From a bacterium (GTDB lineage Bacteria; SZUA-79; Acidulodesulfobacterales; Acidulodesulfobacteraceae), in contig JAJZJX010000001.1 in assembly GCA_021850985.1 (NCBI GenBank), forward strand, positions 121,389 to 185,388: 64,000 bases of DNA, in the 5' to 3' direction. The notes beneath the pieces are model-generated. The model was given only the letters and a program-made list of their open reading frames with translations, was not told the DNA's origin and ran no database searches. Both the position numbers and the translations under genes were made by a program. This document shows, piece by piece, positions 38,247-61,617 of this stretch. The first letter of the stretch is position 1. Each line of letters opens with the position of its first letter.

Positions 38247-41219
38247 ATGAACGGCGAAAAAGAAAACAACTCGGAAATAATCACGATAGAAATTGACGGC
38301 AAAATCGTTAAAGCGGAAAAAGGAATTACCGTACTTCGGGCGGCAAAACAAAACGGCATATATATTCCAGCGCTTTGCGATTATAAAGATTTATTGCCTT
38401 ACGGTTCATGCAGGCTTTGCGGAGTTATAGTAGAAGGCAGGAAAGGATATTTTGCTTCATGCTCTTTATATGCAGAAGAAGGCATGAAAATAAAGACCGT
38501 TTCTGATGAGCTTTTTTCTTTAAAAAAGACTTTAATGGAACTTTATCTTTCCGATCATCCTAACGACTGTCTCACATGCTTTAAAAACGGTCTTTGCGAA
38601 CTTCAAACTGCGGCGTCTTATTTTGACTTAAACGGAATAAGATTCAGGGGAAAAAGCCATCTAAACCTTTCAATAGATAATTCAAATCCTTATTTTTTAT
38701 TTGACCCTAAAAGATGTGTAGTTTGCGCAAGATGCGTAAGGGCTTGTGCGGAAATACAGGGAAATTTTGCGCTTACGGTTGCAGGAAGAGGTTTTAATTC
38801 GGTTGTAAAAGCCGGATGGAACAGAGAAGGCAATTTTTTTAATTCCGAATGCGTTTCTTGCGGCGCTTGTGTAAAAGCTTGTCCGACCGGCGCGCTTATT
38901 GAAAAAAGCTTAGCCGATTACGGCAAACCTTTTAAAAGCACAACAACGACTTGCGGCTACTGCGGAGTCGGATGCTCTTTTAACATTGAAACGAAAGGAG
39001 ATAATATTATAAGGGCTGTTCCTGTTGACGACAGCCTTTCGAATTACGGACGCTCCTGCATTAAAGGAAGGTTTTCTTTCGGCTACGCCAAAAGCCCAGA
39101 GAGACTTAAAAAGCCGCTAATAAGAGAAAATATAGATTTGCCTTTCAGGGAGGTTTCGTGGGAAGAAGCCTTCGGTTTTATCGCCGAAAGATTTAAGAAT
39201 ATTCAGCATAAATATGGAATTAACGCCTTAGGCGCAATCAGTTCGTCAAGATGTACCAACGAAGAAAATTACTTGATGCAAAAACTAGTCAGGGCTGCTT
39301 TTCATAATAATAATATCGATACATGCGCAAGAGTTTGTCATCAGCCTACGGGTTATGGTCTCGGCGTCGCTTTCGGAGCCGGTGCGGGAACGCAGGATTT
39401 AAGTTCCGTTTTTTACTCTGACGTTATAATGATTATCGGCTCAAATCCTACGGAAGCGCATCCTGTCGCAGGCTCTTTTATAAGGCAGGCTGCCCGTAAG
39501 GGAGCAAAACTGATAGTAATAGACCCTAGGAAAACCGAGGTTGCAAGGTCGCCTCACGTTGCCGCAAGTTATCACTTAAGGCCGCTTCCTGGAACCAACG
39601 TCATACTTCTTAATTCAATGGCTTATTATATTTTAAAAGAAAATTTAATTAAAAAAGATTTTATAGCAACAAGATGCGACGAAGAGTCTTTTAAGTTATG
39701 GGCTGATTTTATACTTAACGAATCTAATTCGCCTGAAGCCGCATCGAAAATCAGCGGCGTTCCGGCAGAATTTATCGAAGGGGCGGCACGACTTTATGCG
39801 GAAGCTCAAGCCGCGTCTATTTTTTACGGTCTCGGAGTAACCGAACATCTTCAGGGTTCTACAGGAGTTCTTGCGATAGCTAATTTAGCAATGGCGACGG
39901 GAAATATAGGCAGAAAAGGTACGGGCGTTTCTCCTCTAAGAGGACAGAACAACGTTCAGGGAGCGGCGGACATGGGGGCAGAGCCTTCGACGCTCCCGGG
40001 CTACAGGCATATTTCCGACGAAAAGACGAGAACTTTATATGAAAAAATTTGGAACGTAAAATTGGACGACTTACCGGGCATGAGGCTTCCGGATATGTTA
40101 AGGGGCGGATTGGACGGCAGATTTAAAGGTATATATATAATGGGAGAAGACATAGTTCAAACCGATCCCGATTCAAACAGAATAATTGAATCTTTAAGAA
40201 ATATGGATACCGTAGTCGTCCACGATTTGTTCAAAACCGTTACCTCGGAGCATGCTCACGTCATACTCCCTGGTTCATCTTTTTTAGAAAAAGACGGCAC
40301 TTTTACGAATTGGGAAAGAAGGGTACAGAGGGTAAGAAAAGTTATAGAGCCGGTAGCGGGTTTGCAGGACTGGCAGGTAATCGCAAGACTTTCAAAATCG
40401 TTAGGCTATAATATGTATTATTATAATCCTTCCGAAATAATGGATGAAATTGCAATTACTACGCCTCAGTTTTCGGGACTCAGCTATGAATTGCTTGATA
40501 AAAAAGGTTCAATTCAGTGGCCGGTTAATTCCGAAAATCCCGAAGGTACGCCTATTTTGCATAAAGAGAAGTTCGCAAGAGGCAAAGGCAGGTTTGCTAT
40601 TACGAAACACATAGGTTCCAAAGATTTTATATCGGAAGAATATCCTTTTATTTTAACCACCGTAAGAAATCTTTTCCAGTATAACTGTTCAAATAATACC
40701 AGAAGGAGTTTTAACAGTTTATGGTACGGACAAGACGTTTTGGAAATCTGCGAAGAAGATGCCGAAGCTTTATCGATAAAAGACGGCAGTTTAGTTACCG
40801 TAAAAAGCAAAAAGGGTTCGGTTACCCTTAACGCTAAAATCAGCAAAAGAGTTATGAAAGGGGTAGTCGCTACCACCTTTCACTTTCCCGAACTTAAAAC
40901 CAACGTTTTAACCAGCGAATACGCCGACTGGTCAACCGAAACCCCCGAATATAAAGTAACGGCGGTTGCTATAAGCAAAGTCTACAAGCCTTTTGCTTCA
41001 AGAAATTATAATCCTTTATTTAAAGGAGACGAAGAAATTAAATCTATGTTTTTAGACATCTGCAGGATTTTTGCTCCGTATCCTATTGAAATTGCGGCGG
41101 AAGAAATTCAAAACCACGTCAACAAATACTGGGAACCGTTTTTACGCAAAAAACTCTTTGAGATATACGCCTGCGACGAAAACAGTTTTAAAACGGCTAT
41201 AATAAAAGCGATAGTATGA
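38247..41219 (+). CDS. Formate dehydrogenase alpha subunit-like (NuoG-type N-terminus + Mo/W-bisMGD domain, Cys type)
   Basis: ORF 990 aa; 2Fe-2S CxxC region, CVVCARCVRAC, CVSCGACVKACP, TTTCGYCGVGCSF, CARVCHQPTG. Confidence 0.9.
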   Translation: MNGEKENNSEIITIEIDGKIVKAEKGITVLRAAKQNGIYIPALCDYKDLLPYGSCRLCGVIVEGRKGYFASCSLYAEEGMKIKTVSDELFSLKKTLMELYLSDHPNDCLTCFKNGLCELQTAASYFDLNGIRFRGKSHLNLSIDNSNPYFLFDPKRCVVCARCVRACAEIQGNFALTVAGRGFNSVVKAGWNREGNFFNSECVSCGACVKACPTGALIEKSLADYGKPFKSTTTTCGYCGVGCSFNIETKGDNIIRAVPVDDSLSNYGRSCIKGRFSFGYAKSPERLKKPLIRENIDLPFREVSWEEAFGFIAERFKNIQHKYGINALGAISSSRCTNEENYLMQKLVRAAFHNNNIDTCARVCHQPTGYGLGVAFGAGAGTQDLSSVFYSDVIMIIGSNPTEAHPVAGSFIRQAARKGAKLIVIDPRKTEVARSPHVAASYHLRPLPGTNVILLNSMAYYILKENLIKKDFIATRCDEESFKLWADFILNESNSPEAASKISGVPAEFIEGAARLYAEAQAASIFYGLGVTEHLQGSTGVLAIANLAMATGNIGRKGTGVSPLRGQNNVQGAADMGAEPSTLPGYRHISDEKTRTLYEKIWNVKLDDLPGMRLPDMLRGGLDGRFKGIYIMGEDIVQTDPDSNRIIESLRNMDTVVVHDLFKTVTSEHAHVILPGSSFLEKDGTFTNWERRVQRVRKVIEPVAGLQDWQVIARLSKSLGYNMYYYNPSEIMDEIAITTPQFSGLSYELLDKKGSIQWPVNSENPEGTPILHKEKFARGKGRFAITKHIGSKDFISEEYPFILTTVRNLFQYNCSNNTRRSFNSLWYGQDVLEICEEDAEALSIKDGSLVTVKSKKGSVTLNAKISKRVMKGVVATTFHFPELKTNVLTSEYADWSTETPEYKVTAVAISKVYKPFASRNYNPLFKGDEEIKSMFLDICRIFAPYPIEIAAEEIQNHVNKYWEPFLRKKLFEIYACDENSFKTAIIKAIV

Positions 41220-50658: not shown

Positions 50659-50825
50659 AAATCCTCCTTTAATGAATGATAATAATTTTATTTTAAGGCG
50701 GTAATACAAACATACCGACCAGTTTGTATTTTATAACAGTAATATAAAAATGTCAAATTAATTTCCTTAATCCTGCAATAGAAAATATTTATTAATTTCT
50801 TTATCAGGTTAAGCAAAGTATGAGA

Positions 50826-50916
50826 GGAAAAGGTGTCAGATTTTATTTTTTTGCATGCGAAATAGTTCGAATAACAAAAAAATATCTGCAAAAAAATAAA
50901 ATCTGACACCTTTTCC
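50826..50916. repeat. 30-bp perfect inverted repeat (GGAAAAGGTGTCAGATTTTATTTTTTTGCA)
   Basis: Left arm 50826-50855, right arm 50887-50916, 31-nt spacer. Confidence 0.95.
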
Positions 50917-50956: not shown

Positions 50957-51007
50957 ATTCCCTAACCGCTTTATTGAAATAAATAGAAAAACGGTTAGGG
51001 AGTTTTT
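50957..51007. terminator. Strong hairpin downstream of precursor peptide 1
   Basis: tccctaaccg (50959-50968) / cggttaggga (50992-51001), flanking T-run. Confidence 0.65.
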
Positions 51008-51026
51008 AATCAAACGCAAACTGCGC

Positions 51027-51146
51027 TTATTTGCACTCCTTTCAGGAATAGCAAGAATCCTTTAAGCCGTAATCTTTGTTAATTAATGAATAAAATTCTT
51101 CTGCCTGAATTTCTGCAAACATTGGCGCATCATACACTTTTTTCAT
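51027..51146 (-). CDS. RiPP-like precursor peptide 1 with in-frame TGA (candidate selenocysteine at residue 35)
   Basis: AAAGGAGGTGA Shine-Dalgarno; MKKVYDAPMFAEIQAEEFYSLINKDYGLKDSCYS-[TGA]-KECK*; TGA at 51042-51044; 39 codons, same as paralogs. Confidence 0.8.
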
Positions 51147-51164: not shown

Positions 51165-51425
51165 TTATTCGTTATCATAAATGTATTTTTTGCTTAAAAG
51201 CTTTTGAATCAAGGCTTCGAAGTCTTTTTTCGCTTCCTGCTCCGTTACGTTAAATTCCTGCATTATCGTTGACAATATGTTTTCGTTCGTTGTGCGTCCG
51301 TCGCATAAGGATAAGATTTTATAAGATATTTCGTTAAGCTTATAAATATCGCCGGTTGCGTTATCAAAAAAAATATAGTACGTTTCGTCTTGTTTGATAG
51401 ACACTGTATCCGAAAGTTTTAGCAT
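51165..51425 (-). CDS. PqqD-like RiPP recognition element protein
   Basis: ORF 86 aa; YYIFFDNATGDIYKLNEISYKILSLCDGRTTNENIL. Confidence 0.8.
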   Translation of the reverse strand: MLKLSDTVSIKQDETYYIFFDNATGDIYKLNEISYKILSLCDGRTTNENILSTIMQEFNVTEQEAKKDFEALIQKLLSKKYIYDNE

Positions 51426-51453: not shown

Positions 51454-52485
51454 TTATATCCAGCACTGAGGATCTTTTGAATTTAAATCGTGATTATAAT
51501 AATAGCTTATGGCTTTGCATCCGCCGCATCTATCGGAATGAGAACAGCCTGCACATTCGTTTTTTCCGCTCCTTTTCCTTAAATTCCATAAAATATCGGA
51601 ATTATACCATATCTTAAATAATCCGTCCGTTAAAATATTTCCAAGCGGAAGAAAAAGCCTTCTGCAAGGAAGCAGAGTTCCATCATGCATTATACATAGG
51701 GAAGATAAACCGATAGGGCAATATCCGCCGGCATTTTCGTCTATCAGGTTCCATAACGGGCGCGACGTCGAAAGTTTAGTATTTCTATTTTTAAATTCTA
51801 TTTTTGATTTTTCGTAAACATCAAAATATATTTTTTTTAAATCTTTAGCTTCAATAAAAAATTCTTCTTTTTCCTTATCGTTCATTGTGGTCATTCTTTC
51901 TACCGTCAGTGCGTCTATATCAAGCGAAGCTGCCAATTCCGGCATTTTAGAGGCTGATGCGGCATTTTTTTTATGAAGCGTAAACATCAAAACGGTTTTT
52001 ATTCCCGAATTTTTTAACATTGCAACCGCGCTTACCGTTTTTAAAAACGCCCCATCCCCTCTTATTGCATCATGCGTTTTTTCATCGTGTCCGTCAAGCG
52101 ATACTTGAATTTCGGATAATTTTTTATAAGTTTTCAGTTTTTCGATTAACTCATCATTAATTAAAGTTCCGTTTGTCAGAACGGCGATATTTTTAAAATT
52201 ATCCGAATTTTCGATTAAATCTATTAAATAAAAAAGTCCTTCCGGTTTTAAAAAAGGCTCCCCTCCGGTCAGAGAAACGTAGCATTTCATATTCCATTTA
52301 GCCATTGCTTCGTCTAATTTTTTAAATATAGCGTTAAGAATATCGAAATCGATGTTTTTATTGTTGTATCCGTTTTGATAGCAATGTTTGCATCTTAAAT
52401 TGCAGGAATCTATAAAATGCCATTGCACATAAAATTCATTGTCCGTTTTTTTATTATTATAAGCATCCATAATTAAATTATACAA
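51454..52485 (-). CDS. Radical SAM/SPASM peptide maturase
   Basis: CNLRCKHCY; SLTGGEPFLKP; C-terminal SPASM-like cysteines CPIG..CIMHDGTLLPCRR..CAGCSHSDRCGGC. Confidence 0.9.
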   Translation of the reverse strand: MYNLIMDAYNNKKTDNEFYVQWHFIDSCNLRCKHCYQNGYNNKNIDFDILNAIFKKLDEAMAKWNMKCYVSLTGGEPFLKPEGLFYLIDLIENSDNFKNIAVLTNGTLINDELIEKLKTYKKLSEIQVSLDGHDEKTHDAIRGDGAFLKTVSAVAMLKNSGIKTVLMFTLHKKNAASASKMPELAASLDIDALTVERMTTMNDKEKEEFFIEAKDLKKIYFDVYEKSKIEFKNRNTKLSTSRPLWNLIDENAGGYCPIGLSSLCIMHDGTLLPCRRLFLPLGNILTDGLFKIWYNSDILWNLRKRSGKNECAGCSHSDRCGGCKAISYYYNHDLNSKDPQCWI

Positions 52486-52603: not shown

Positions 52604-52723
52604 TTAAAAACAAGCTCTGCAGGTGCGGCATGAATTTGCGTCTCTATAACTTTTCATAATAATGCGATTAAATTCTTCCGCTGAAATTTCTTTAAATAAC
52701 GGTATTTCATATATGCTTTTCAA
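52604..52723 (-). CDS. RiPP-like precursor peptide 2 (39 aa, CxxCxxC)
   Basis: TTG start after AAGGGGGTG; MKSIYEIPLFKEISAEEFNRIIMKSYRDANSCRTCRACF*; paralog of peptides 1 and 3. Confidence 0.88.
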   Translation of the reverse strand: MKSIYEIPLFKEISAEEFNRIIMKSYRDANSCRTCRACF

Positions 52724-52759: not shown

Positions 52760-53389
52760 TTATGGATAAGTAGGGTATGACACATTGACAACAGGCCAAT
52801 TAATTAACATTTTGCGTAAACGGTTTTTTTGCTGCGCTGTCAGTATCCGCATAGCATCAATGTGTGCGCTAATAATTTTTTCTCCCACTATTTTTTCTGT
52901 ATTTTCAAATATCTTTTCGTATTTTATTAATTTGCTTTTACTTGGATTGTTTTTCAAGACCTCCATATAAAACATTTTTCTTGATTTGTTTAAAGTATTT
53001 ATTAAAGGGACACTTTCCCTTAGCACTTTTTTTACTATCATAGCTTCCTGTTTTATCTGATTAGAGTTTAGTTTTAAAATTTTACTATTCATAAACATCA
53101 AATGTGCACCTGGATATGTCTTATAAAAGAAGGGCATAATCAATATCGCATGGATGTAAGGCTGCCAAAACGGTATCAACCTGTGTATCTTCATTAAAGT
53201 AGATCTATTTATAAGCTTATTCATTAAAGTGCTTTTTTTTCCGGCCATTGCCGCGTTATGACCTGTTGGCATATTGTTTCCGCATGGATTTTTCATCATT
53301 GCAAAACTTGATTGTGTAATGCCGAAACTTATAAAAATTAGTAAAAGCAGCAATAAGAAGGGATAATTTTTTTTAATCATAATCAACAT
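52760..53389 (-). CDS. Secreted Spy/CpxP-like (LTxxQ-type) protein with N-terminal MKNPCGN motif
   Basis: Signal peptide; MMKNPCGNNMPTGHN near predicted mature N-terminus; LTAQQ motif. Confidence 0.55.
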   Translation of the reverse strand: MLIMIKKNYPFLLLLLLIFISFGITQSSFAMMKNPCGNNMPTGHNAAMAGKKSTLMNKLINRSTLMKIHRLIPFWQPYIHAILIMPFFYKTYPGAHLMFMNSKILKLNSNQIKQEAMIVKKVLRESVPLINTLNKSRKMFYMEVLKNNPSKSKLIKYEKIFENTEKIVGEKIISAHIDAMRILTAQQKNRLRKMLINWPVVNVSYPTYP

Positions 53390-53491: not shown

Positions 53492-53611
53492 TTACTTGCA
53501 AGATTTACAAGAACAGCAAGAATTTTTTATTTCATGACATTCCATAATTAAACCGGTAAATTCTTCCGCTGAAATTTCATAAAATAATGGAATTTTGTAG
53601 GTTTTTTTCAT
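53492..53611 (-). CDS. RiPP-like precursor peptide 3 (39 aa, CCxCxxC)
   Basis: TAAGGAGGTG Shine-Dalgarno; MKKTYKIPLFYEISAEEFTGLIMECHEIKNSCCSCKSCK*. Confidence 0.9.
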   Translation of the reverse strand: MKKTYKIPLFYEISAEEFTGLIMECHEIKNSCCSCKSCK

Positions 53612-53636: not shown

Positions 53637-54113
53637 TTACATTGCAATTAAAAATGTATAACCTTCTTTAATTTTTTTTAAAATTTGTAAAGTTCCGCTG
53701 GGAATTATTTTTATAAAATGCGGTATATTTTTGGGATTCACGCCGTTTAGCATTAAGGCGTTGCCGCTGATCCTGAAACTTACGCCTTTGCTTCTAAGAA
53801 AATTAAGTAAACGATTGTGTTCCGTATGTGAAACGGTTAAAAACTTTACGACGGGTCCATAAAAAACTATCTGTATTGAATATTTTTTGCCTTCCGATTT
53901 AAGGTACCTTATTGCATGTTCCGCATTTAACATGGAAATTCCTAACTGTTGTCCTGGCATATTGACGCCGGCGACTATCTTTACGGGTTTATTATAGTTT
54001 CTATAAAACCCGCCGTAGTTAGAATTTTGTCCGGCGAACGCGGAAACAGAGCTAAAACCTAAAATAAGAATCGAAGCGGCTATTATAAAAAAATTAATCT
54101 TAAACATAAGCAT
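53637..54113 (-). CDS. Exported DsrE-like protein
   Basis: Signal peptide; KPVKIVAGVNMPGQQLGISMLNAEHAIRYLKSEGKKYSIQIVFYGPVVKFL. Confidence 0.6.
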   Translation of the reverse strand: MLMFKINFFIIAASILILGFSSVSAFAGQNSNYGGFYRNYNKPVKIVAGVNMPGQQLGISMLNAEHAIRYLKSEGKKYSIQIVFYGPVVKFLTVSHTEHNRLLNFLRSKGVSFRISGNALMLNGVNPKNIPHFIKIIPSGTLQILKKIKEGYTFLIAM

Positions 54114-57293: not shown

Positions 57294-57629
57294 ATGACAA
57301 ATAACGAGTTAACGCTTAACAAATTTTTTAAACTGCTAGGCGACGAAAGCAAATTTAAAATAATTTCCGAACTAAAAAACGGGGAGAAATGCGTATGCGT
57401 TATCTATAAAGCGCTTAGTCTCGACCAGACATTAGTTTCGCATCATTTGTCGGCTTTAAAAAAAGCCGGATTAATAGAGGGAAGGAAATCTGGCAAGTGG
57501 GTTTATTATTCGCTTAACAGGGAAGCATTTAAAGAAATAGAAAATATTTATAAAGATTTATTTGGTATAGATAAATTAAAAGAAATTAAAAGCGTCGAAT
57601 GCGGCGACGATAAAATTTGTGCTGTATAA
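57294..57629 (+). CDS. arsR: ArsR-family regulator
   Basis: ORF 111 aa; ELKNGEKCVCVIYKALSLDQTLVSHHLSALKKAGLIEGRKSGKWVYYSL. Confidence 0.92.
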   Translation: MTNNELTLNKFFKLLGDESKFKIISELKNGEKCVCVIYKALSLDQTLVSHHLSALKKAGLIEGRKSGKWVYYSLNREAFKEIENIYKDLFGIDKLKEIKSVECGDDKICAV

Positions 57630-57680
57630 ATATGTATTTAATTAATTTATTAATTTTAAAAAAGGAGGTACGAATTAATC

Positions 57681-58007
57681 ATGGATAAAATAATCTTTGA
57701 GATTTACGATCCGGCTTTATGCTGCTCCACCGGAGTTTGCGGTCCAAATTCAGACGAAAAACTTATAAAAGTTAGGAATTTAATCGACAAATTAAAATCG
57801 GATTTCGGCGAGTATATAGAAATAAAAAGGCAGACTATATCGCAGGAACCGAAGAAATTTCTTGAAAACCCTTCAGTTCAGCTACTAATGAAAAATGAAG
57901 GGAAAGCCGCCCTGCCGGTCTGTATTTTAAACGGAAAGGTCATAACATACGGGAGATACCCAGAAGAAAAAGAGGTTTACAGCTTTATTTCATCTTTATC
58001 ATCTTAA
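57681..58007 (+). CDS. arsD: Arsenite metallochaperone ArsD
   Basis: EIYDPALCCSTGVCGPNSDEKL. Confidence 0.95.
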   Translation: MDKIIFEIYDPALCCSTGVCGPNSDEKLIKVRNLIDKLKSDFGEYIEIKRQTISQEPKKFLENPSVQLLMKNEGKAALPVCILNGKVITYGRYPEEKEVYSFISSLSS

Positions 58008-58041
58008 ATTTAACCGTTCTTAAGATATATCGGAGGATAAA

Positions 58042-59796
58042 ATGCATTATTACTTTTTTCACGGCAAAGGAGGCGTCGGCAAGACCACCGTATCGTCGGC
58101 ATTTGCCGTGAGATTTGCGCTCGAAGGAAAAAAAACGTTAATCGTTTCGACAGACCCTGCATCCAACCTGAGCGACATTTTTGAGCAAAACATAGGAAGC
58201 ATAGAAAAAAAGATTGAAGGATTTGAAAATCTTTACGCGTTAGAAATGGATACGGATGCCGAGGTTATAAAGTATAGGCAGAAGGTTCTCGGCGACAGCG
58301 CAGAGTTTTTGCCGGAAGAAGTTTTAAATTCTATCGAGGAAGAGTTTAAATCTCCATGCACCTCGGAAATAGCTTTCTTTAACGGTTTTACCGAGCTTTT
58401 TCTTAAGAAAGATTACGATGTCATTATATTCGATACGGCTCCTTCCGCGCACACTTTAAGACTACTTGAGCTTCCTATGGAATGGACTGCTTATATCGAT
58501 GAAGTCAAAAAAGGCGCAGGACAGACATGTATGGGGCCCGTAGTAAATTTAGACGGATATTACGAACAGTATAAAACCGCCCTAAATGGAATAAAAGACC
58601 CTGAACTTACGACGTTTGTATTTGTGATGCGTCCTAAAGAACTGGATTTGCTGGAAATTGAAAATTCAACGGAAGAAGTCAAAAAATTCGGCATAAAAAA
58701 TATAGAAATAATAGTTAACGGTATCTTACCGGACAAGCTATTCCGCAAAAATGAGTTTAAAGAAATTATCGCTGACCAGAGAAAGGTACTAAAACAGATA
58801 TATTCAATGGGTTTTAAAACTCTAGAAATAAATTTAAAGAAAAATGAGGTAAAGGGATTAAGGCCGCTGATCGTCTTTTTTTCAAGTTTAATTGAAGATT
58901 CCGACGAAGATAAAATTGCTTTTACGGATGAAATCGATATTAAACAAAAAAACGATGAACTTATCCGGGATATAATGCCTCAAAAGACGCCGTTTTACCT
59001 GTTTTTCACCGGCAAGGGCGGGACGGGCAAAACTGTGTCTTCCCTTTTGTTCGGGAAATATTTTGCCGGCGGAGGAATGAAAACTTTAGTGGTTTCTGCA
59101 GATTATTCCGGACATATAACAAAAATAACCGGATTAAAAAATATAGGCGAAGCTCCGATAAAGTCCGAAGTTGACGATAATTTATATTTTGCAAAAATTT
59201 CTCCGGATTCGGCTTTAGACGAATATAAGAAAAACACAGTCGAATATTTTAAATCGTATTCCGGCAACGTAAAATCGCTTAAGGTTTTAGAAGAGGAATT
59301 GAACTCCCCCTGCACCGAAGAGGTTGCCGTTTTTAAAAAATTCTGCAGTTTCTTTTTTGAATATAAAGATTACGACGTTATAATTTTCGATGCCGCACCC
59401 ACCGGTCATGCTTTGCGTCTTTTATATATAAGTTTGGAATATGCCAAAATGGACAGGAAAGATGCAAGTCTCGAAGAATTCGTTAAAATACTTAAAGATA
59501 CGAATAAAACCATATTTTCGCTCTGCCTTTATCCCGAATACAGCCCTATAGAGGAAGCCAAAAGGGCATACGACGATTTAAAAGCGGCCGGAATTAATAC
59601 ATCCTTTCTGGTCGTTAATTATATCCTCGGCGGAAATTTTAACGACGCTTTTTTTAACGGCAGGAAGAAAATGCAGGAAACTTATATTGAATCGATAAAG
59701 CAAAAATTTGATATTCCTTTTTTTACGATACCGCAGTATATAAGCGAGATTAATAATCAAAAAACTTTGGACGCGCTTTATTCCGGCGTATTTTAA
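58042..59796 (+). CDS. arsA: Arsenite-activated ATPase ArsA (tandem)
   Basis: Two P-loops: GKGGVGKTTVSSAF and GKGGTGKTVSSLLF. Confidence 0.95.
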   Translation: MHYYFFHGKGGVGKTTVSSAFAVRFALEGKKTLIVSTDPASNLSDIFEQNIGSIEKKIEGFENLYALEMDTDAEVIKYRQKVLGDSAEFLPEEVLNSIEEEFKSPCTSEIAFFNGFTELFLKKDYDVIIFDTAPSAHTLRLLELPMEWTAYIDEVKKGAGQTCMGPVVNLDGYYEQYKTALNGIKDPELTTFVFVMRPKELDLLEIENSTEEVKKFGIKNIEIIVNGILPDKLFRKNEFKEIIADQRKVLKQIYSMGFKTLEINLKKNEVKGLRPLIVFFSSLIEDSDEDKIAFTDEIDIKQKNDELIRDIMPQKTPFYLFFTGKGGTGKTVSSLLFGKYFAGGGMKTLVVSADYSGHITKITGLKNIGEAPIKSEVDDNLYFAKISPDSALDEYKKNTVEYFKSYSGNVKSLKVLEEELNSPCTEEVAVFKKFCSFFFEYKDYDVIIFDAAPTGHALRLLYISLEYAKMDRKDASLEEFVKILKDTNKTIFSLCLYPEYSPIEEAKRAYDDLKAAGINTSFLVVNYILGGNFNDAFFNGRKKMQETYIESIKQKFDIPFFTIPQYISEINNQKTLDALYSGVF

Positions 59797-59829
59797 CTAA
59801 TAGATTTTTACGATAAAGGTGTATATATT

Positions 59830-61149
59830 ATGGGTTTACAATTGTCTCACGATTATAAAGTTATTTTTGCCGTAGCTATTTTTCTTTTTACGCTCTTTCT
59901 TGTTATAAAAAAACCATACAATATAGGAATAGGCTATAGCGCAGTAATAGGCGCGGTTTTAGCCTTTATTTTCGGAATAATACAATATATCGACATTTTT
60001 AAAGTAGTCGATATCGTTTGGGATGCTACATTTACTTTTGTGGCTACGATAATTATTTCTTTAATACTTGACGAAATAGGTTTTTTTGAATGGGCGGCGC
60101 TGCATATCGCAAGATTTGCGGGAGGAAGTGGCAGAAAATTATTTATCTACGTTATACTTCTTGGAGCATTAGTTGCCGCTTTGTTTGCAAACGACGGAGC
60201 CGCGCTTATTATCACGCCTATAGTGTATGAAAAAATGAAGGCGCTTAAATTTGAAAAAAAACATATGATCCCATTTATAATGGCAGCGGGCTTTATTGCC
60301 GATACTGCGTCTCTTCCCCTTAAAACATCCAACTTAGTTAATATAGTATCGACAGATTACTTTAACATAGGTTTTTTTACATATTTTATAAATATGTTGA
60401 CGCCGGATATCTTTTCTATTGTAGTTTCGACTTGTGCGCTTTATCTTTTTTTCAGGAAAGATATTCCCGCCCGTTACGATGTCGGTTCATTGAAAATACC
60501 TAAAGATGCAATAAAAGACGAAAAGCTTTTTAAATATTCTTTTTTAATTTTGGTTCTGCTTTTAGGCGGTTATTTTGCAAGCGAATTTTTAAATTTACCC
60601 GTTTCGATTTTTGCAATTACTTTTGCAGCGCTGTTTTCTTATATGGGTTTCAAGAGCCCTGCCGTTAATTTAAAAAGCGTGTTTAAAGACGCCCCGTGGA
60701 GCATAGTGATATTTTCAATAGGAATGTATCTTGTTGTTTTTGGCTTAAAGAATGTAGGTTTAACCGAGTTGCTGGGGAGGTCTATTTCTTATTTTTCCCA
60801 TTCAGGCGTTTTTATTTTAACTGTTTATACGGGGTATTTGGCGGCTTTTATATCTTCTATTATGAATAATATGCCGACGGTAATGATAAATTCCCTTGCA
60901 ATTCATTCGGCAAATCTTAAAAGCATAATGCTGAAACCTGCCGTATATGCTAATGTTATAGGATGCGATTTAGGACCTAAAATTACCCCTATCGGTTCTT
61001 TGGCGACTTTATTATGGCTCAACGTATTGGAAAGAAAAGGAATAAAAATAAGCTGGGGTTATTACTTTAAGGTAGGAATAATTTTAACGGTGCCGGTTTT
61101 ATTTTTTACGCTTTTAGGCCTTTACTTTATTATGTCGGCAAGGATTTAA
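59830..61149 (+). CDS. arsB: Arsenite efflux permease ArsB
   Basis: ORF 439 aa; ANDGAALIITPIVYEKM, MNNMPTVMINSLAI; in ars operon. Confidence 0.93.
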   Translation: MGLQLSHDYKVIFAVAIFLFTLFLVIKKPYNIGIGYSAVIGAVLAFIFGIIQYIDIFKVVDIVWDATFTFVATIIISLILDEIGFFEWAALHIARFAGGSGRKLFIYVILLGALVAALFANDGAALIITPIVYEKMKALKFEKKHMIPFIMAAGFIADTASLPLKTSNLVNIVSTDYFNIGFFTYFINMLTPDIFSIVVSTCALYLFFRKDIPARYDVGSLKIPKDAIKDEKLFKYSFLILVLLLGGYFASEFLNLPVSIFAITFAALFSYMGFKSPAVNLKSVFKDAPWSIVIFSIGMYLVVFGLKNVGLTELLGRSISYFSHSGVFILTVYTGYLAAFISSIMNNMPTVMINSLAIHSANLKSIMLKPAVYANVIGCDLGPKITPIGSLATLLWLNVLERKGIKISWGYYFKVGIILTVPVLFFTLLGLYFIMSARI

Positions 61150-61176
61150 ATATTTAAATAAAAAGGAGGGAAGACA

Positions 61177-61617
61177 ATGAAAATAATTTTTCTATGCACG
61201 GGAAATTCTGCAAGGAGTCAAATGGCAGAAGGGTTTGCTATAGATTTAAAGGAAAAGGTTTATAAGGATAAAAATTTGATAATTTTGAGTGCAGGAGTAT
61301 CTCCTAAGCCTGTAAATCCTTTATCTATAAAGGTTATGGCCGAAAAAGGCATCGACTTGACCGGACATAAATCAAAATCTTTAGACGATATAGATTTAAC
61401 AAATGCCGATTATATAATTACCTTGTGCGGAGACGCTAAAGATAACTGTCCGTATGTCGGGGCAAAAACTAAAAATCTTCACTGGGATTTATTAGACCCT
61501 GCGAATGCCGAGGGAAACGAAGAAGAAAAACTTGATTTTTTTAGAAAAATCAGGGATGAAATTGAAATCAGAGTAAAAGATTTTATGTTTCACGTGAAAC
61601 ATAAAAATAAAATTTAA
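61177..61617 (+). CDS. arsC: Arsenate reductase (thioredoxin-coupled, LMW-PTP type)
   Basis: FLCTGNSARSQMAEG; TLCGDAKDNCP. Confidence 0.95.
   Translation: MKIIFLCTGNSARSQMAEGFAIDLKEKVYKDKNLIILSAGVSPKPVNPLSIKVMAEKGIDLTGHKSKSLDDIDLTNADYIITLCGDAKDNCPYVGAKTKNLHWDLLDPANAEGNEEEKLDFFRKIRDEIEIRVKDFMFHVKHKNKI
61586..61601. promoter_or_regulatory. parS: parS site (perfect 16-mer), inside arsC 3' end
   Basis: tgtttcacgtgaaaca; encodes MFHVKH in the ArsC tail. Confidence 0.92.

Follow-up and report, generated by a model that had tools for sequence, protein, structure and literature searches.

A selenocysteine-containing precursor peptide family, probably of RiPP type, encoded beside a radical-SAM/SPASM enzyme in one bacterial phylum

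The short gene pep1, in a window of 64,000 nucleotides (the whole stretch of DNA that was analysed), is very likely a selenoprotein gene and, within that reading, most likely encodes a RiPP precursor; its enzymatic modification is inferred, and no product has been seen. Selenocysteine (Sec) insertion at codon 35, an in-frame TGA, is strongly supported and on sequence grounds close to certain, with no Sec product observed. This insertion had been inferred in an earlier note on the same DNA, and is supported by the sel genes of the genome, by a covarying hairpin behind the TGA, and by alternation of TGA with TGC and TGT among homologs that keep the tail after this codon.

The pep1 gene and its paralogs

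pep1 lies at 51027..51146 on the minus strand (39 codons plus a TAA stop), with a leader-like N-terminal part, MKKVYDAPMFAEIQAEEF..., a core SCYS[U]KECK, and the ribosome-binding site AAAGGAGGTGA just 5' of the ATG. The TGA at codon 35 (51042..51044, minus strand, read from 51044 to 51042) belongs to the frame that the ATG at 51146 opens, and the full reading is MKKVYDAPMFAEIQAEEFYSLINKDYGLKDSCYS[U]KECK-stop, 39 residues. Standard gene callers halt at UGA, and a gene of this kind would therefore be annotated as a truncated ORF or not at all.

Two Cys paralogs are present on the same strand, pep2 (52604..52723, core SCRTCRACF, TTG start) and pep3 (53492..53611, core SCCSCKSCK), neither with a SECIS. 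The three peptides align without gaps, with the pep1 TGA opposite invariant Cys35, and the placement of this codon against Cys35 of both paralogs in the earlier note is thus exact. On the minus strand the order is radical-SAM/SPASM gene, PqqD gene, pep1 and a terminator-like repeat, with pep2 and pep3 upstream. The repeat (CCCTAACCG...CGGTTAGGG, about 50959..51001, minus strand, with T-rich DNA 3' of it) was read from the sequence as a probable intrinsic operon terminator, and similar inverted repeats were also found 3' of several homologs. A long palindrome at about 50820-50915 of the window, formed by GGAAAAGGTGTCAGATTTTATTTTTTTGC... and the inverted repeat of it, resembles a mobile or REP-like hairpin element.

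Conservation of the TGA codon and of the tail behind it

A first search of the genome collection, with the radical-SAM enzyme as query, gave 10 related loci, all from metagenome bins, and a precursor was present at nine of them, in each case with TGA and a KECK(K) or KSCK tail. A profile search for the precursor itself, over 30 genomes of the phylum (order-level and phylum-level searches give the same 30), detected the family in 27. The counts below omit a 13-residue fragment at a contig end, weak chance matches, and one copy in genome G026 (G026b, TGA without a hairpin), which was excluded as decayed because it has an internal TAA and has lost one Cys. Outside the phylum, no convincing member was found in the 386 genomes searched (30 of these being the phylum itself); a single weak match lay inside a 985-aa open frame and was taken as chance. 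The order to which the window genome belongs, Ca. Acidulodesulfobacterales, is known from acid mine drainage, with genomes of 1.9-2.5 Mb (PMC6776010).

Codon 35 is TGA in 26 of the counted copies, each from a separate genome, and TGC or TGT in the other 10, which is the alternation among orthologs, with conserved tail, that had been proposed earlier as a check. All 26 intact TGA copies keep a coding tail of the form K-[E/S/A]-C-[K/F], which bears out the earlier claim, made for pep1, of a K-E-C-K-stop tail past the TGA and a total length of 39. Codon changes past the TGA are mostly synonymous and in third positions: codon 36 is AAG or AAA (once AGA), codon 37 is GAA or GAG, or TCC, TCT or TCA (once GCT), codon 38 is TGC or TGT, and codon 39 is AAA or AAG (once TTT). 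Ten of the TGA copies end on a second TGA as final stop, so UGA is not globally recoded in these organisms. The N-terminal two-thirds of the family are conserved in the manner of a recognition leader, with the pattern Y-x2-P-x3-E-I-x-A-E-E-F.

A covarying SECIS-like hairpin behind the TGA

Folding of the RNA 3' of the TGA and a search for a SECIS in it, also suggested earlier as a check, gave a covarying SECIS-like hairpin at the right distance. In pep1 the hairpin is AAGCGCA-GUU-UGCGUUU (51012..51028, minus strand; supported by covariation and fold), with position 51021 as the apical G, 20 nt past the UGA. It overlaps the stop codon (51027-51029), and since it spans this codon, the greater part falls in the 3' UTR, where it is freed from coding constraint.

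A hairpin with a 5-nt loop, AG[G/U]U(N), stands behind 26/26 TGA codons, with the loop G 19-26 nt past the UGA. In a set of 21 distinct sequences, pairing within the six-pair stem reaches 94.4%, and four of the six pairs change on both sides; the same sequences give 14 double-change cells, compared with 3.7 in shuffles, and the signal collapses in slid registers. In the published bSECIS model (PMC13188914), one of the first two loop nucleotides is a G, the loop has 3-9 nt and comes 16-37 nt after the UGA, and the stem has at least 4 bp; the present hairpins satisfy this model, their G being the second loop nucleotide, with G or U next to it, and their spacing 19-26 nt. The stem put forward in the earlier note, GCAAA/UUUGC, did not hold up (70% paired, as in shuffles, with no excess covariation), and the supported stem is AAGCGCA/UGCGUUU at 51012-51028.

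The hairpin accompanies the TGA codon closely, being present in 26/26 copies with TGA and in 1/10 with Cys (Fisher p about 1e-7, kinship ignored, given as a summary only). The conserved TGA and tail, with the covarying hairpin behind them, go well past anything expected by chance. Of the 1,418 TGA triplets that the 64-kb window contains in all frames of both strands, only two precede such a hairpin core, one being that of pep1 and the other a TGA at 38702 on the plus strand, out of frame within a long gene.

Selenocysteine machinery

All four genes named in the earlier note as a test, selA, selB, selC and selD, were found in the genome. selC (tRNA-Sec) scores 68.5 bits, above its gathering score, with anticodon TCA (ARAGORN); SelB is complete (656 aa, contig C73); SelA scores 565 bits; and SelD is itself a selenoprotein, its active-site motif HG[U]GCK containing an in-frame TGA (L028). 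That no sel gene lies in the window, as the note had stated, is unremarkable, since the genome carries these genes on contigs other than the one that holds the window. Across the phylum, SelA was detected in 29/30 genomes, in 28 of them above the family cut-off, and the single genome that gave no match is assembled to 86% completeness.

A second SelB-like frame (428 aa) at the end of the short contig C30 may be a paralog or assembly strain variation (L009, L010). In several genomes one contig carries both the precursor locus and selA, 10-12 kb apart (L066, L063, L068, L061), which may be only ancestral synteny; the Sec precursor of genome G008 is at the ancestral locus (L068:9450-9569).

Neighbouring genes and the putative maturase

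Directly upstream of pep1 are genes for a PqqD-family peptide chaperone, or RiPP recognition element (51165..51425, minus strand; PF05402, 56.1 bits, cut-off 23.4), and for a radical-SAM/SPASM enzyme, the putative maturase (51454..52461, minus strand; PF04055 and PF13186). The enzyme has a CX3CX2C motif and the invariant SPASM cysteines, and the NCBIfam models closest to it are those of the ACGX, SbtM and GeoRSP maturases, with scores far under the cut-offs (149, 138.3 and 132 bits, with cut-offs of 400, 350 and 400). Its closest solved structures, SkfB (6efn, E 1.4e-15) and 5wgg, point only to generic SPASM maturases. A search for plasmid relatives gave only distant radical-SAM proteins below 60% identity, the best among the matches listed being at about 28%.

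In most clusters the radical-SAM, PqqD and precursor genes are adjacent in that order, and the radical-SAM and PqqD genes are the sole genes common to most clusters compared, the rest being variable or ordinary synteny; the two are present in 24/30 and 23/30 genomes of the phylum, respectively. The criterion for a radical-SAM RiPP, a short precursor near a radical-SAM/SPASM gene and an RRE/PqqD gene, is met with the exception of genomes G008 and G009. The proposal in the earlier note that pep1 is a RiPP precursor is supported by these two neighbours, with the reservation that the G008 precursor has neither.

Two exported proteins are encoded directly before the Cys paralogs: a helical protein (52760..53389, minus strand) before pep2, without a Pfam match and with homologs that precede the G012 precursors, and a DsrE-like protein (53637..54113, minus strand; DsrE below the gathering score) before pep3, with homologs directly ahead of Cys precursors in G005, G012 and G022. 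We regard the position of these genes ahead of Cys precursors as a hint, so far uninterpreted, at what the peptides do. At 57294-61617 of the window, some 6 kb away from the precursor genes, there is what reads from its sequence as an arsenic resistance-like cluster (ArsR, ArsD, a double ArsA, a transporter and ArsC).

Alternative explanations

Three alternatives concern the decoding of the UGA. If the TGA were a true stop, the peptide would end ...CYS and the hairpin would be a regulatory or terminator element; a short TGA-ending ORF is formally possible in any one genome, but 26 copies show coding constraint past the TGA, the Cys paralogs continue in frame across the corresponding position, the hairpin is gone in 9/10 of the TGC or TGT copies, and a separate terminator-like repeat lies farther 3', all of which leaves this explanation very improbable. 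Reading of the UGA as another residue, such as Trp or Cys, by genome-wide or local recoding would agree with the alignment of the TGA to Cys in the paralogs; it is more improbable still, given that a tRNA-Sec(UCA) and the full Sec machinery are present, and that 10 of the same peptides terminate on TGA. A one-base sequencing or assembly error, with TGC or TGT as the true codon, might be suspected in a window genome fragmented into 84 contigs, and is the least credible of the three, already refuted by the homologs: 26 intact copies, found in this and other genomes of the phylum, share the TGA.

Sec decoding leaves the fate of the peptide to be considered, and an unlikely but more serious alternative is that Sec is inserted and the product is no RiPP: it would be a short selenopeptide left unmodified, with a redox or metal-binding role and C-x2-U-x2-C as its chalcogen ligand set, and the radical-SAM and PqqD proteins would serve another substrate. 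In genomes G008 (97% complete, 7 contigs) and G009 a Sec precursor with SECIS is present, yet neither a radical-SAM nor a PqqD homolog could be detected, and the precursors of G028, G001 and G010 are on a contig other than that of the enzyme, so maturation by the enzyme is unproven and may not be obligatory. The same explanation is favoured in that no dedicated exporter or protease was seen, and by the arsenic-type and DsrE-like genes nearby. It is opposed by the ordered adjacency of the three genes in most clusters, where the enzyme and PqqD genes alone are widely shared, and by the leader-like conservation of the N-terminal two-thirds. A RiPP precursor remains the preferred reading of pep1.

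Proposed maturation and role

Under the preferred reading, Sec-tRNA delivered by SelB would decode the UGA at codon 35, directed by the hairpin with its apical G 20 nt downstream. The N-terminal leader (Y-x2-P-x3-E-I-x-A-E-E-F) would be bound by the separate PqqD-type protein, as inferred from its family and the gene neighbourhood, and the radical-SAM/SPASM enzyme, on the evidence of neighbourhood and enzyme family, would then modify the C-x2-U-x2-C core; the same enzyme probably acts in trans on the all-Cys pep2 and pep3. By analogy, the chemistry would most likely be chalcogen oxidation or cross-linking, giving a thio/selenoether or a thio(seleno)oxazole, and the selenolate may bind an auxiliary Fe-S cluster during catalysis. 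Precedents exist for both types of product. PapB, probed with artificial Sec, was shown to bind the chalcogen at an auxiliary cluster and to form a selenoether, and is thus a precedent for such binding by Sec or Cys (PMC10470005). SbtM, as a review describes it, converts a Cys substrate to a thiooxazole and removes four hydrogens from a Sec substrate as well (PMC11002830).

No conserved exporter, protease or immunity gene was found among the clusters compared. As this is so and the core is near-constant in the Sec copies, we favour a cofactor-like peptide for redox or metal handling over an antibiotic, although the inference is weak. A fuller picture is offered only tentatively, and is rather more doubtful than probable: a phylum-specific, near-universal Se-RiPP with a near-invariant C-x2-U-x2-C core, serving as a dedicated redox or metal cofactor and not as an antibiotic, present in Sec and Cys forms in one cell, and with a selenolate that naturally engages the auxiliary cluster of its maturase.

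With three precursors and one enzyme, the window genome would hold Sec and Cys substrates of one maturase. Sec in radical-SAM peptide chemistry has so far been probed by artificial Sec substitution, and the occurrence of both substrates together in a single genome makes the contribution of Sec to this chemistry testable.

Comparison with known systems

The nearest known counterpart is SbtA/SbtM (TIGR04081/TIGR04082), which likewise has a precursor with UGA-encoded Sec, a downstream SECIS, and an adjacent radical-SAM/SPASM enzyme. Two reviews (PMC11002830, PMC13188914), with reference to Lewis et al. 2021, describe it as the selenobacteriocin system, whose RiPPs are of the thio(seleno)oxazole type. 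The present enzyme is only distantly related to SbtM (138 bits to TIGR04082, far under the cut-off of 350; 335 vs 516 positions), and the PqqD protein, unlike in the SbtM system, is encoded by a separate gene. The core also differs, being C-x2-U-x2-C with one Sec here and SGUG with two Sec in SbtA, as does the occurrence of Sec and Cys paralogs within one genome. None of 22 precursors matched TIGR04081, and no match to it was found in the genome search, which had no positive control.

GeoRSP (TIGR04302/TIGR04303) and ACGX (TIGR04340) have alignable radical-SAM/SPASM enzymes, and GeoRSP also a PqqD-family partner, but the present enzyme reaches only 132 and 149 bits, respectively, against cut-offs of 400, and the precursor is unrelated to any NCBIfam model. 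Filing the system under TIGR04081/SbtM, GeoRSP or ACGX was rejected, the scores being under the cut-offs or a match being absent, and no convincing NCBIfam or Pfam match to the precursors was found. SkfB, CteB and PapB are similar in being SPASM/Twitch-type thioether maturases that act on Cys of leader-bearing peptides; PapB accepts artificial Sec and forms selenoethers (PMC10470005), whereas the present substrate has natural Sec.

A 2026 inventory of prokaryotic selenoproteins comprises 119 families or subfamilies, including selenobacteriocin (TIGR04081, SGUG, two Sec) (PMC13188914 Table 1). Its families resemble the present one in having UGA with a bSECIS, Cys homologs at the same position, and motifs of the C-x2-U type. 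No C-x2-U-x2-C precursor with radical-SAM/PqqD genes is recognisable in that table, where selenobacteriocin alone can be identified from its name as a RiPP precursor, and in the open literature SbtA/SbtM was the only case found of natural Sec in RiPP precursors. Because no convincing family match was found, and no member outside the phylum in the 386 genomes searched, we call the present peptides a second, sequence-unrelated family of Sec-containing, radical-SAM-associated precursors; this rests on the open literature only, and a prior description is possible.

Replacement of Sec by Cys within the family

Nine of the 10 Cys copies are without the hairpin core, and one, G012c, alone keeps a perfect hairpin. 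A damaged-looking version of the hairpin was seen in the Cys copies of G005, G012a, G022, G023b and G028a, which is the trace expected from replacement of Sec by Cys followed by SECIS decay. At least three separate replacements are inferred, because the contexts of the Cys copies differ (a DsrE-like gene, a helical protein gene, a lipoprotein gene, and the G029 pair); no tree was used, and 39 residues resolve little. Within the family, the conversion of Sec to Cys and the decay of the SECIS can be seen at several stages. In G012, the TGC copy with the perfect SECIS and a TGA copy on another contig have near-identical 3' regions (L060:11618-11737, L064:2674-2793), and this TGC/TGA pair is apparently a very recent Sec/Cys switch.
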